A stretch of 64,000 bases of DNA, from the NCBI GenBank assembly GCA_034506175.1, contig JAPDQB010000003.1, positions 62,001-126,000 on the forward strand. The letters are read 5' to 3'. A program made the position numbers and the translations under genes. Position 1 is the stretch's first letter; the number at the start of each line of letters is the position of its first letter. The notes under the pieces are model-generated. The model saw nothing but the letters and a program-made list of their open reading frames with translations. It was not told the origin of the DNA and made no database searches. Origin of the DNA: a candidate division KSB1 bacterium (GTDB lineage: Bacteria > Zhuqueibacterota > Zhuqueibacteria > Zhuqueibacterales > Zhuqueibacteraceae). Of the stretch, positions 13,975-19,406 are shown piece after piece.

Positions 13975-15207
13975 TTACCATTTCCGTTCCAATGCAGTCA
14001 TTTCAAAAACCTGCCGCAGCATCTTCTCCTGCGCCGTTGAGAGCGTGATTTTCCGCCGCGCCATCACACGACGAGCCACCTCCAGTGCCTTCTCACAATC
14101 GTAAGTTTCCATGCCCTCAATGCCACCCCAAGTAAACGACGGGATGAATTTAGCCGGATAACCCGCGCCGAAAATATTGCTCATGACCCCGACGACAGTG
14201 CCGGTGTTGAACATGGTGTTGATGCCGCATTTCGAATGATCTCCCATGATCAAACCGACAAAGAGCAAGCCGCTGTCCACCATCTCGCCGTTGACGTAAA
14301 CTTTCACCGTGCTGTAATTGTTTTTCAAATCGCTGTTGTTGGAATCCGCGCCGAGATTGACCCATTGCCCGAGATAGGCATGGCCGAGAAAGCCCTCGTG
14401 CTGCTTGTTGCTGTAGCTGTGAATGATGGATTCTTCCACCTCGCCGCCGACTTTGCAGACTTCGCCGATGCAAGTGCCTTCGTAAATTTTCGCGCCCATT
14501 TTAATGGTGGATTTGGCGCCGACAAAGACCGGGCCCAGCAAACACGCATTCGCCATAATCGTCGCGCCTTCGTCGATATAAATCGGGCCGTCTTCCGCAT
14601 CGAGCACGACGCCGGGCTTGATTTTCGCGCCGGCGGCGATGTAGATGTTTTTCTCTTCCAGCAGCGTGACATTGGGATAGATTTTTCCCAAAATTTGTCC
14701 GCCGCGATTGAAACAAGCAAAGTCGCGACGAATCTGCCCGGCATTGTGATGCACCAAATCCCACGGGTAACGAATGAACGTGCCGTCGATCTCCTCAACC
14801 GGCAGGCCCTCGAACCACGAGGTTGGGATGACACCATCTTTTATTTGCGCCAGCGAAGCGAGGCGATTGCCGCTGATCCACGCTGCGGCGACCTCGCCGT
14901 CTTTTTTCCAAACCATGTTTTGCGAGCCGGGTGCGGACAGTTTTTCTCCCAAGATAAAACGCCCATTGATGAAAAGACAAGGTTCGGAGGGCAGATGATT
15001 GACCGGCACCGTGGGCAGGATTTCACGAACAACCTCGACAAGATACGTCCGGCAAAAAAGATGAAGTCGGCTATCGGGAAAACGACAGGCGATTTTTTCG
15101 CGCAGGAGGGAAATGCCGCAGCGGAGATCATACACCGGGCGGGTTAAGGTCAACGGATAGAGACGAGTAAAGTGCTCGTCTTCAAAGATACAAAGATTGG
15201 TGGGCAT
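13975..15207 (-). CDS. GlmU-like sugar nucleotidyltransferase/acyltransferase (Bacteroidota-type alternative GlmU)
   Basis: 410 residues. The N-terminal part (CIFEDEHFTRLYPLTLTRPVYDLRCG) is the divergent nucleotidyltransferase signature of the alternative GlmU family. From about residue 190 a left-handed beta helix follows (hexapeptide repeats such as GAKIKPGVVLDAEDGPIYIDEG, then ATIMANACLLGPVFVGAKST), typical of sugar acyltransferases. Family knowledge suggests GlcNAc-1-P to UDP-GlcNAc chemistry. GAGGA precedes the ATG. The first 33 codons are duplicated, with five mismatches, at 15942-16039 on the far side of a toxin-antitoxin pair, so the original promoter may have been displaced. Confidence 0.85.
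   Translation of the reverse strand: MPTNLCIFEDEHFTRLYPLTLTRPVYDLRCGISLLREKIACRFPDSRLHLFCRTYLVEVVREILPTVPVNHLPSEPCLFINGRFILGEKLSAPGSQNMVWKKDGEVAAAWISGNRLASLAQIKDGVIPTSWFEGLPVEEIDGTFIRYPWDLVHHNAGQIRRDFACFNRGGQILGKIYPNVTLLEEKNIYIAAGAKIKPGVVLDAEDGPIYIDEGATIMANACLLGPVFVGAKSTIKMGAKIYEGTCIGEVCKVGGEVEESIIHSYSNKQHEGFLGHAYLGQWVNLGADSNNSDLKNNYSTVKVYVNGEMVDSGLLFVGLIMGDHSKCGINTMFNTGTVVGVMSNIFGAGYPAKFIPSFTWGGIEGMETYDCEKALEVARRVMARRKITLSTAQEKMLRQVFEMTALERKW
15110..15207 (-). repeat. Direct repeat copy 1: first 33 codons of the GlmU-like gene
   Basis: These 98 bases match 15942-16039 at 93 of 98 positions in the same orientation. The copies diverge completely beyond codon 33. They bracket the DUF433/DUF5615 pair. 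Confidence 0.9.
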
Positions 15208-15254: not shown

Positions 15255-15626
15255 CTATGGAGATTTTCGACCAATAATACGGGCTTTTGTTGCCGTGACC
15301 ACAACAAGTACTCCACGGTAATCGGTAAGTGTTGATTGAGCTAAGAAACGCTGCAGAGCGCGATTCATGCGTTCTGCAGTAAGAGGTTTCACGCGAATCA
15401 CAATGATTCCCGTGTACATACTTGGAGGGTATTGGCGGCCATTGGCAAAAATTTTATCTGCCGAAATCAACACGCGATTTTCACGCCATGCCAAATCTGC
15501 AACGACATGATCCGGCACACCGCTGCCGAGACGCACATCCACGCTATCGACTTGGAAGCCGTAGAGCTCCAAAAGGCGTCGAGTGGAACGTGCAATGTCG
15601 CTGTCCGCCAATGCCGGGATTTTCAT
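15255..15626 (-). CDS. DUF5615 PIN-like protein (probable toxin)
   Basis: 123 residues, PIN-like fold of the DUF5615/Mut7-C group, commonly paired with DUF433. The start (KIPALADSDIARSTRRLLELYGF) shows ADSD where relatives have DEN, and VPDHVVADLAWRENRVLISADKIFA carries the later acidic positions. These acidic residues bind metal in PIN RNases, and activity here is inferred. Its ATG overlaps the antitoxin stop by four bases (ATGA), as in classic toxin-antitoxin pairs. A second such pair is at 31874-32435. Part of the island that includes the NACHT gene. Confidence 0.75.
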   Translation of the reverse strand: MKIPALADSDIARSTRRLLELYGFQVDSVDVRLGSGVPDHVVADLAWRENRVLISADKIFANGRQYPPSMYTGIIVIRVKPLTAERMNRALQRFLAQSTLTDYRGVLVVVTATKARIIGRKSP

Positions 15627-15871
15627 CTGCCGTTTTCAATTTTTTCGACGGCGCGAGAGGCAAAGCGCATCGCGGCTTGAATATCGGCGCGCGTCAGCGT
15701 GGGATACTCGAAAATGATTTCTTCCGGCATATAACCTTCGGCAAGATGATCAAGAATCAAGCGTACCGGAATACGTGTTCCGGCAATGACTGGTTTACCG
15801 CCTAAAATTTTGGGATCTCGAATGATTCTCGATTTTTTAGGAGAACGAGTCAAAGTTTTTAAAGATTTCAT
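15623..15871 (-). CDS. DUF433 antitoxin-like protein
   Basis: 82 residues. The DUF433 core is clear: IIRDPKILGGKPVIAGTRIP, then VRLILDHLAEGYMPEEIIFEYP and LTRADIQAAMRFA. DUF433 proteins are small helix-turn-helix proteins, usually upstream of and overlapping DUF5615 genes, thought to be the antitoxin and autorepressor. The Lys/Arg/Ser-rich start (MKSLKTLTRSPKKSR) is a short extension. Translation is coupled to the toxin through a four-base overlap. Confidence 0.8.
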   Translation of the reverse strand: MKSLKTLTRSPKKSRIIRDPKILGGKPVIAGTRIPVRLILDHLAEGYMPEEIIFEYPTLTRADIQAAMRFASRAVEKIENGR

Positions 15872-15941: not shown

Positions 15942-16039
15942 GAAATGCCGCAGCGGAGATCATACACCGGGCGGGTTAAGGTCAACGGATAGAGACGAGT
16001 AGAGTGCTCGTCTTCAAAGATACAAATGTTGGGAGGCAT
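15942..16039 (-). repeat. Direct repeat copy 2: truncated 5' end of the GlmU-like gene
   Basis: Encodes a start codon and 33 residues nearly identical to the intact gene (MPPNICIFEDEHSTRLYPL...), with a GAGGA ribosome site upstream, then the match stops. Differences are T3P, L5I and F13S. It lies between the NACHT gene and the antitoxin. The 307-base interval 15872-16178 holds this fragment and the hairpin at 16093-16113 and nothing else I recognise. Confidence 0.9.
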
Positions 16040-16074
16040 ACTTGGACGTCCTCATAGCAAACGCAGGACAACGT

Positions 16075-16113
16075 AATTTTAAAAAAAATTTTCGAGGCGC
16101 TCGCTGCGCTCGC
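16075..16113 (-). terminator. Possible terminator of the NACHT gene
   Basis: Read on the minus strand, GGCGC...GCGCC (16113 down to 16093) forms a GC-rich hairpin followed by CGAAAATTTTTTTT. It lies about 65 bases after the NACHT stop codon. Confidence 0.4.
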
Positions 16114-16178
16114 GCCAAAGCAAATTATCAAATATTAAAATAACCAAATGACTCAAAGGCTCAAATGCCCCATGATTG

Positions 16179-19100
16179 TCACGAGCGCACGGCACGCACG
16201 TAGTAGCCGTAGTAGCCAATGTCGTAGTGGACGCAACCGCCGAAGTTGAAATCGACATACCACGCACGCCCAGCGCTTTTTTTATCGGCCGTCCAAATCC
16301 ACCTCGGCTCCGGGTCAAATACCGGATCGATATACAAATAGCCGTTCATCTTTTTCGGCTCCATCAGCGACATCGCTTCTTCAAGTGTCGGTAAACGCCA
16401 GTCATCATACCCGGCAAATTTCTCGCGGTTAAGCTTCTCGATATATTCCTGTGCATCCTTCCAACCCATGCTTTTTTCGGTTCCACCCTGTTGCCACATT
16501 AAACCGGTGGCGTAATCCATGACCACGCTTTCTTTCTGAGAATCGTAAGCGACATAAAAATGGGAAAGCCCCTTTCCGGCTTTGTTCATGGTAAAATCAA
16601 AAAAGTCCCTTTCCTGCAAAGCCAGCTTGACGGTACCACCAGAGAGCGATTCGTTGGGTTTATCTCGTAATTTTATAGGTTTCACACTGGCATTCTGTGC
16701 CAGTACCGTCAAGCCACTAAGGTCTTCCAGGCCGGTGCACCTGCAAAGATTAAGCGATCTTAGCTTGGGCATCATTGGCAAGCCGCTGAGTTCATTTAAA
16801 CCGGTACACCCGCGGAGACTGAGCGTGGTCAGCTCAGGCAGTTGGGGCGGCAGGCCACTCAAATCTTTCAGAAGATCGCAGCCGCCAAGATCAAGGTGAG
16901 ACGTAAACCGGATTTGTGGAAATTCGCCAAGCTGCTGCAAGTTTTCGAGACGAATAAAATCGCGAACCGGGACATGCAAGAATAAATCTCTTATGGCAAA
17001 GAGCACCTCGCGGCGGAACAATTCATCATCCAAAGCATCTTTGGCAATCGCTCTGACCACCGCCCTTCGAGAATCATTCCCATAGCTTCTTAAAATCCCT
17101 CGCGCTGTGTCGCTGTTGATGAGTTTTAGCGCCTGAACGCAGGCCACCGCTGCTTCTTCATCGAGATTTTCTTTGTATACCAAAAGCGGGGCGGCAAGAT
17201 CACCGGTCAACGCGATCGCTTTGGCTTCGTCGAAATTTTTGGGAGGAATCAGCTTCGCAACCCGCTGATTGACTTGCTCGCGCAGCGCAGCATCAACATC
17301 GATGGCGGTCTCGAGGCAGGCGACGGCAAGGAAGTGAAGCTGATGGCGATGCGCTTGTTCTCGATCTCCGCGCTCAAGCAGTTTGCTGATCAGCTCCTTT
17401 CTGATTTGGCGAGGCGCATGGCCAACCGCCAGAATGATGACTTCGCGCCATTGGTCGTTGGTGGCGTTCTTGATCAGGAGCCCCAGATCATTCTCGTCCA
17501 CGGCCGCTTTGGCGCCGAGGAACTCTTGAAACGTCCGGTGGACAAAATCAATTTTGGTTTCAATGGGCACGCGCAGCAGACCGCTGCGTTCAACCAAAAA
17601 TTCTCGTATCTCGGCGGCAGTAAACTTGGCTTCGTCTTTGCCGAAGTTCATAATTTTCTTTGCAAAACGCCCTTCAGCTTCCTCAAACGAAACGACGGAA
17701 GCTTCATTTCTGATCATGTAGTACGCCAGATCCTGTAGCAATACAAGCTTTTGGCTGTAGCTTAGCGTCGGGGCATACTGCAGGTCAACTGAGAGCTGCT
17801 GTTCTTTGCCACGGCGTTCCAAGAGCATCTCGCAACAGGCGTCATACAACCGCAGCCTTTCCGCCGGGATTTGTTTCTTGCGGTCACGATGCAAGGCGCA
17901 TATCGTGGCGCACAGCAGCGGGTTGGTGGCCAGGTTGCGAATCGGCCGATTTTGTTTGATAAACTCCCGCAAGCTGCTTTCCAGCCCATCGATCTCGGAC
18001 TTTTCCTGATCAGACTGCAGTTCTTCACGCACGGCCAGATGCCAATGCTCCAAAAACTTATAGATGTTGGTCAAGTCCATCGGCTCCAGCTCGAATTCCG
18101 CAAAGCCTTCCCGTGCCAGCCATCCTTCATTGACTGCCGTTGGTCTGGTGGTGACGAGGAACTTCGCTTTCTCGTAAGTATCCCCCAGCTCCTTGATCCA
18201 CTGATAAACGGTGTGCCGCTCGAGTTGCGGAACTTCGTCGACACCATCGATCATGACCACAGCTCTTCCCGACTCCAATATCTGATGCACCCAACCGCCC
18301 GGCATTTTATCGGCAATCAGAGGCACGAGATGGCGGACAAAGTTTTCCGGGGCCGGCAGGCCGGAGTTGACGCATTGCCGCAAAAAAATCACAAAGGGAA
18401 TTCGATGGTTCAAATCCGCCAAACCATTTTTCAATTTTTGCGCGGCACATTGGACGGCAACCCATTTCACCAACGTGGTTTTTCCCGAACCCGCCAATCC
18501 ACGGATCATCAGCCGATCCGCACCGGCTAAAACATCGTCCACCGTTTTGGAAATCCGTTCTTCTCCGGCATCGACTTGTTGATCCGTGCCCGTTTCAACC
18601 ATTCTCGAGATGTCACTTTTTGCATCTGGAATTGCGGATGGTGGGATTCGACGTGAGGGTAATTTTCCTGAAGCGGACAAACTGATATAGGCGACACTCA
18701 GCTGATGCCGGCGACTGGGAGTTGAAACGTCAACGCCAAATAATTCCACCTGATCCAATTTTCGCGCGACTGCCAGCCGGTATTCGGTTTCAAATCGGGC
18801 AAAATTTGCTTCAAGATTGGCTTCCCGGCTTTTTTCGCGAATCTCGCGAACTTCTTTTAGAATAGCTTTCGCGACGCCGTGAATCTCGTTTTCGCGCTGC
18901 AGCACTTCGGCAAAAGTCTTTTCGGTAAAATTCGGAAGCTGAGAAGAAATATCGACGATGTATTGCGCGCACTCATCCACCAGACGGTCATAAAAGGCGC
19001 ATTCGATTTCAGACAATGATTTCTTTTGCTCGACGCTGGCGTTGCCGATAAATTTCGACAGTTCGGAGGGATCCAAATTCCTCTTGACCAAAAGCTCTAC

Positions 19101-19406
19101 ACTAATTCGCAGATTGCGGAGAACGCCGCCGGCCGTTTCTGCTACTCTCTTTTTGTCTTCTTCACTCAAATTTTCATATTCATGAGCGAAGAGGGGATGC
19201 AAGCTTTCCGCCACCTCTTCGGCAATGGCCTCGAATTGGCGATTGCCGCGTCGTGAGGCAATGCCTTCCGAGACTTTGGATTTCAAAAAGTCGATAATCT
19301 CCCCGCCAACATTTTGGGCAAAGTCGGAGTCCTTTGCCCAAAATTTCAAGATGCTTTTGGCGACGGCTGAACCGAGGCTCGCGATCAGAAATTCAATGAG
19401 ACTCAT
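16179..19406 (-). CDS. NACHT-LRR-DUF1566 NLR-like STAND NTPase (probable defence protein)
   Basis: 1,075 residues. Residues 1-280 are helical and resemble NACHT N-terminal helical domains (KLDQVELFGVDV and LSVAYISLS are typical linker phrases). The NACHT core has a Walker A GLAGSGKTT (~303-311) and Walker B VVMIDGVDEV (~383-392). A helical region follows, then leucine-rich repeats (LTTLSLRGCTGLNELSGLP and two related units, ~870-920). The C-terminus (~960-1075) is a DUF1566/Lcl_C domain (MDYATGLMWQQ, YDDWRLPTLEEA, WTAD, YVRAVRS). Bacterial NACHT proteins protect against phage, and DUF1566 is a frequent target of diversity-generating retroelements. The last codons here have an unusual NNC run. 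Neighbours are a DUF433/DUF5615 pair and a DUF4143 ATPase. A defence role is inference from family and context. Confidence 0.88.
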   Translation of the reverse strand: MSLIEFLIASLGSAVAKSILKFWAKDSDFAQNVGGEIIDFLKSKVSEGIASRRGNRQFEAIAEEVAESLHPLFAHEYENLSEEDKKRVAETAGGVLRNLRISVELLVKRNLDPSELSKFIGNASVEQKKSLSEIECAFYDRLVDECAQYIVDISSQLPNFTEKTFAEVLQRENEIHGVAKAILKEVREIREKSREANLEANFARFETEYRLAVARKLDQVELFGVDVSTPSRRHQLSVAYISLSASGKLPSRRIPPSAIPDAKSDISRMVETGTDQQVDAGEERISKTVDDVLAGADRLMIRGLAGSGKTTLVKWVAVQCAAQKLKNGLADLNHRIPFVIFLRQCVNSGLPAPENFVRHLVPLIADKMPGGWVHQILESGRAVVMIDGVDEVPQLERHTVYQWIKELGDTYEKAKFLVTTRPTAVNEGWLAREGFAEFELEPMDLTNIYKFLEHWHLAVREELQSDQEKSEIDGLESSLREFIKQNRPIRNLATNPLLCATICALHRDRKKQIPAERLRLYDACCEMLLERRGKEQQLSVDLQYAPTLSYSQKLVLLQDLAYYMIRNEASVVSFEEAEGRFAKKIMNFGKDEAKFTAAEIREFLVERSGLLRVPIETKIDFVHRTFQEFLGAKAAVDENDLGLLIKNATNDQWREVIILAVGHAPRQIRKELISKLLERGDREQAHRHQLHFLAVACLETAIDVDAALREQVNQRVAKLIPPKNFDEAKAIALTGDLAAPLLVYKENLDEEAAVACVQALKLINSDTARGILRSYGNDSRRAVVRAIAKDALDDELFRREVLFAIRDLFLHVPVRDFIRLENLQQLGEFPQIRFTSHLDLGGCDLLKDLSGLPPQLPELTTLSLRGCTGLNELSGLPMMPKLRSLNLCRCTGLEDLSGLTVLAQNASVKPIKLRDKPNESLSGGTVKLALQERDFFDFTMNKAGKGLSHFYVAYDSQKESVVMDYATGLMWQQGGTEKSMGWKDAQEYIEKLNREKFAGYDDWRLPTLEEAMSLMEPKKMNGYLYIDPVFDPEPRWIWTADKKSAGRAWYVDFNFGGCVHYDIGYYGYYVRAVRS

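Follow-up and report, generated by a model that had tools for sequence, protein, structure and literature searches.

NACHT sensors diversified by diversity-generating retroelements (DGRs) are, as such, already known: Doré et al. (2024) described NACHT and STAND proteins of multicellular bacteria that carry CLec sensors diversified by DGRs, degenerate loci included (PMC10907252), and DGR-linked ternary systems were described by Kaur et al. (2020) (PMC7159879). DUF1566 is likewise a known and common DGR target domain (PMC6642488). The gene analysed here lies in a window of 64,000 nucleotides of DNA from a candidate division KSB1 bacterium. It resembles the clade 5 DGR targets of Thiohalocapsa PB-PSB1 and other multicellular bacteria (PMC10907252) in carrying a C-terminal C-type-lectin variable repeat (VR) fused to NACHT or STAND, in being one of several targets per genome with TIR, CHAT and kinase among the annotated domains, and in the occurrence of degenerate loci without machinery. 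It differs from them in belonging to another phylum (KSB1/Calditrichota), in a single Lcl_C/DUF1566 module that is common to all effectors, in the presence of NNH1 and leucine-rich repeats (LRRs), and in a genome without a working locus.

Comparable likenesses and differences are found with three other groups of proteins. The bNACHT and Avs anti-phage proteins also combine an N-terminal effector or adaptor region, a central NACHT and a C-terminal sensor, but their sensor is a fixed repeat or another fixed domain, whereas the window protein has a DGR-written lectin domain. Classical DGR targets (Mtd, TvpA and the DUF1566 targets) share the lectin fold and the adenine-directed changes at the 3′-end of the gene; the best-studied ones, however, are surface or tail proteins, and the window protein is predicted to signal in the cytosol. 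Animal NLRs are alike in joining NACHT to LRRs, but the window protein has only ~3 LRRs and an extra lectin domain that carries the variability. A preliminary description of this DNA had found no described home for the domain combination, a claim superseded by the CLec/DGR-diversified NACHT proteins described in 2024 (PMC10907252). Our literature search for DGRs together with KSB1 found no such system, and new as far as searched are the NNH1-NACHT-LRR-Lcl_C target with LRRs beside the diversified domain, the phylum KSB1 with one module common to many effector types there, and a mutator loss traceable by synteny.

Results

The window gene encodes an NLR-like protein that ends in a predicted C-type lectin domain

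The single 1,075-residue chain with NACHT, LRRs and a C-terminal DUF1566 domain that had been reported for this DNA was confirmed by the open reading frame, the Pfam matches and the Walker motifs (Table 1). The two features by which bNACHT proteins are recognised, a NACHT with intact Walker A and B motifs and an N-terminal NNH domain, are both present. PADLOC gave no significant match for the protein. The LRR part amounts to ~3 repeats, with an LRR_4 score barely above the Pfam cut-off, and no secretion signal is visible by eye. Structure prediction, which the preliminary description had named as a check, gave a C-type lectin fold for the Lcl_C module (AlphaFold2, pLDDT 96); the full-length model, built from seven sequences, reached a pLDDT of 40, and the module model alone was used. 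The top PDB match of the module model in Foldseek was 8q4e, the C-terminal domain of Legionella Lcl, and C-type lectins were matched as well. The domains and the predicted module fold thus support the earlier proposal of an NLR-like architecture whose C-terminal sensor has a lectin fold, and a role of the protein in phage defence is plausible.

Table 1. Features of the NACHT gene and its 3′ region, in window positions.
Feature	Position	Strand	Basis
CDS of 1,075-aa NNH1-NACHT-LRR-Lcl_C protein (DGR target)	16179..19406	minus	ORF without internal stops
NNH1 N-terminal helical domain (aa 9-183)	18858..19382	minus	Pfam PF22733, E 2.4e-35
NACHT NTPase (aa 298-456)	18039..18515	minus	Pfam PF05729, E 6.5e-19
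Walker A, GLAGSGKT at aa 303	18477-18500	minus	Motif reading, intact
Walker B, VVMIDGVDE at aa 383	18234-18260	minus	Motif reading, intact
Leucine-rich repeats, short (aa 857-899)	16710..16838	minus	Pfam LRR_4, 1.2e-6, 29.0 bits vs cut-off 27
Lcl_C / DUF1566, C-type-lectin fold (aa 961-1074)	16185..16526	minus	Pfam PF07603, E 3.1e-23
DGR variable repeat (VR), last ~110 bp	16172..16280	minus	Alignment to intact TR of G002 (same genus)
VR G/C-rich constant end, GTGCGTGCCGTGCGC, candidate IMH tract	16185..16199	minus	Comparison of five targets
VR-type 3′ mark TGACAATCAT	16172..16181	minus	G002 TR has TGAAAATCAT there
Shared downstream element GGCGCGAGCGCAGCGAGCGCCTCGAAAATTTTTT, candidate hairpin or terminator	16083..16116	minus	Folding z-score -0.6

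The NACHT gene has an orthologue at the syntenic site of the sister genome G002, where the order is nagB, NTP-transferase, NACHT and DUF4143. The two orthologues are 81% identical overall and 52% identical over the last 25 aa. The surroundings of the gene comprise nagB and sugar-nucleotide genes, with no obvious defence island. Pfam confirmed the neighbours that had been named earlier (DUF433, DUF5615 and AAA_14+DUF4143), and the adjoining DUF4143 gene is conserved at the syntenic G002 locus. The DUF433/DUF5615 pair is absent from that locus, so no conserved association with the NACHT gene was found, and membership of the NACHT system was not borne out. The pair (15255-15871) lies between ~100-bp direct repeats (about 15109-15207 and 15942-16040), which match the beginning of the adjacent sugar-nucleotidyltransferase gene; it is probably an unrelated insertion, with the host gene still complete.

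The 3′-end of the gene is the variable repeat of a DGR

Compared with the template repeat (TR) of G002, a genome of another species in the same genus that served as the reference with no intact TR of the window genome surviving, the window VR is changed at 12/32 template adenines and at 2/74 other bases (Fisher p = 6e-6). The adenine-derived changes fall in codons 1052, 1055, 1057, 1059, 1061, 1065, 1066 and 1068, and one additional codon relative to the G002 TR is present near 1066-1067. The module model and Foldseek place the VR within the C-type-lectin-fold domain, as is characteristic of DGR targets. As read from these alignments, the 3′-end of the NACHT gene is shown to be the VR of a DGR, that is, to be of DGR origin. 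The earlier suggestion that the C-terminal domain acts as a sensor is strengthened, because it is this lectin domain that was DGR-diversified. The VR of the G002 orthologue does not fit the known G002 TR, with mismatches at 13/27 A sites and 14/72 other sites; therefore, to judge from these mismatches, either another template must have been used there or drift must have followed. A predicted hairpin 3′ of the window VR was no more stable than shuffled sequences and was dropped as a significant structure.

The same module is carried by different effectors

The window genome is a 5.86-Mb draft of 84 contigs that was scored 100% complete. A search of it with the NACHT protein revealed four more genes with a C-terminus 52-55% identical, giving five targets in total, and these four are the only other Lcl_C genes in the genome. 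Their N-termini comprise one TIR (contig C4), one Ser/Thr kinase with PEGA (C6) and two STAND-like regions (C13 and C47), of which C13 was assigned by a weak nSTAND3 match and C47 by its likeness to C13. The last ~25 codons of the five targets vary mostly at NNC/NNT codons and are bounded by a fixed TGC and the G/C-rich constant end, which is exact in 3/5 targets and has one mismatch in a fourth. Such NNC/NNT variation between fixed landmarks is, at the level of the codons, the footprint of a DGR.

Scanning of GTDB genomes returned 325 stretches related to the module, the best 80 of which come mostly from KSB1/Calditrichota, Brocadiales (anammox) and Desulfobacterota. All of the 53 full related proteins that were scanned contain Lcl_C (53/53), together with TIR in 10, caspase in 8, NACHT in 6, kinase in 3 and CHAT in 2; the status of DGR target need not hold for all 53, a TR having been shown only in the loci with a TR/VR comparison. 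Phage records yielded no copy of the module, and the plasmid matches listed were limited to remote Vibrio, Photobacterium and Persicobacter proteins with ~31% identity.

Complete cassettes are present in related genomes

Homologues of the accessory gene avd in KSB1 relatives led to complete cassettes of target, avd, TR, reverse transcriptase (RT) and target, whose RTs have the DGR-type IGNxTSQ motif in their translations. Comparison of TR and VR within each locus, flanks included, gave mismatches at 219/503 A sites versus 52/1,135 others. The A bias is significant in the TR/VR pairs of seven loci (best, 16/31 A versus 0/74 other, p 1e-10), and the cleanest cassettes have zero mismatches at 74-75 non-A sites. 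G002 itself holds a full cassette in the order avd, TR, RT and TIR target, with a STAND target upstream of avd.

The machinery is broken in the window genome

Neither the RVT_1 profile nor the G002 RT detected a DGR RT in the 84-contig draft of the window genome, whereas the relatives have it. An avd gene is intact on contig C4, near the TIR target (PF22296 bAvd, 42.2 bits vs cut-off 40; NCBIfam DivGenRetAVD, NF033474, E 2.7e-13, under the cut-off). Both flanks of the site on this contig align with the G002 cassette, and the site is contiguous, with other genes at the place of the RT; its order is avd, a mutated copy at the TR position, a small ORF that is nucleotidyltransferase-like by eye, and the TIR target. 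The TR-position copy (90503-90645; about 6500-6700 of L055, minus strand) is changed at 11/33 template adenines, as though the template had recombined with a VR or been overwritten by mutated cDNA. The STAND target that stands upstream of avd in G002 is missing at the C4 site, and two targets are followed by remnants of the avd start. C4 against G002 is most simply read as a deletion of the RT that left the sensor repertoire frozen, and the window species seems to possess a fixed set of pre-diversified sensors.

Two candidates for the missing parts were rejected. The C4 copy was dropped as a TR, being a mutated remnant that is not A-rich, and no intact TR was found elsewhere in the window genome. 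The sole RT found there, L015 (G000:C12:2613-3215), adjoins a Cas1-like ORF and is thus CRISPR-associated by its neighbour; with a DGR-RT match of only E 0.003, it was dropped as a DGR RT.

Discussion

The NACHT gene very probably encodes an NLR-like immune sensor that was formerly a DGR target and is now frozen as the machinery is broken; it is taken as a frozen product because no RT is left and the TR copy has itself mutated. Reverse transcription that made mistakes at adenines would have turned an RNA copy of the TR into cDNA, and this mutated cDNA would have replaced the final ~110 bp of the gene, altering about eight to ten C-type-lectin residues and sparing the scaffold residues. The lectin domain, perhaps with the LRRs, may then bind an invader or danger ligand, whereupon NACHT would oligomerise on ATP and the NNH1 helices would provide an effector or adaptor step that probably ends in cell death or dormancy. 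That the tip binds a ligand, that NACHT oligomerises and that NNH1 signals is proposed after established NLR/STAND biology.

The view that the 3′ differences arose without a retroelement, through the ordinary rapid evolution of a loop that binds ligand, deserves next to no credence. Lectin loops do evolve fast, and the orthologous VR of G002 differs at some non-A sites too; however, mismatches in the cassettes that keep RT, TR and avd are confined to A sites, the 74-75 other sites being unchanged, and the window VR obeys the same A rule and has the 3′ mark typical of VRs. Ordinary fast evolution is refuted by this TR/VR pattern, unless the pattern were an alignment artefact. A DGR still active in the species, whose RT and TR reside on DNA that the draft lacks or in other strains and which continues to diversify the NACHT sensor, is considerably more credible but still improbable. 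It would accord with the intact avd on C4, the full cassette of the sister genome and the clean VR structure in all five targets, but it is opposed by the failure of both RT searches in a genome scored as complete, by the contiguity of the syntenic C4 site with other genes at the RT place, and by the adenines lost from the TR-position copy.

The identity of the ligand admits another reading, to which we accord a somewhat greater though still low probability: the diversified domain may recognise kin, surfaces or self/non-self in aggregates, as in allorecognition or adhesion signalling, rather than phage. DUF1566 is elsewhere tied, as a DGR target domain, to pilins, lipoproteins and fimbrial proteins (PMC6642488), and kin recognition has been put forward as an alternative for such systems (PMC10907252). 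Fusions to NACHT, TIR, caspase, CHAT and STAND, all of which are typical of intracellular death or immunity signalling, together with the apparent lack of a secretion signal, argue against it.

The frozen immune sensor would be a bacterial NLR-like protein tied to a machine that produces sensor diversity on purpose. It is possible, and we propose it only tentatively, that one template family writes a variable patch of the same type into receptors with different effectors in each cell (NACHT, TIR, kinase and STAND, and in relatives also caspase and CHAT), forming a combinatorial repertoire, and that the mutator was then lost, leaving a once-adaptive repertoire that is now fixed, inherited and innate. 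The species pair, in which one member has a full cassette and the other lacks the RT, offers a direct test of the role of DGR-written immune sensors, and would also show whether selection fixes good variants after the loss of the mutator.

Additional loci

The same module occurs at L148, L149 and L140 of a Deltaproteobacteria-labelled MAG (PRO9), with avd, TR, RT and target also present at L148; either horizontal transfer or mislabelled binning would account for this. Several DGR RTs carry a MutS_I domain at the C-terminus (L070:4013-5533, minus; L072:1310-2794, minus; L148:483-2327, plus). This fusion was dropped as a novelty, as MSL (PF01624) is already known as a DGR accessory domain (PMC10053308). 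Two further NACHT proteins of the window genome, L006 (G000:C61:6495-7871) and L007 (G000:C14), have ends that resemble FGE-sulfatase by eye, and it is possible that they are targets of a second, separate DGR, FGE-sulfatase being another C-type-lectin subtype. In four relatives (G001:C154, G004:C2, G007:C5 and G034:C67), a NACHT gene has a shorter DGR-like RT ~2-4 kb away, and these RTs probably represent a second DGR type with NACHT targets.
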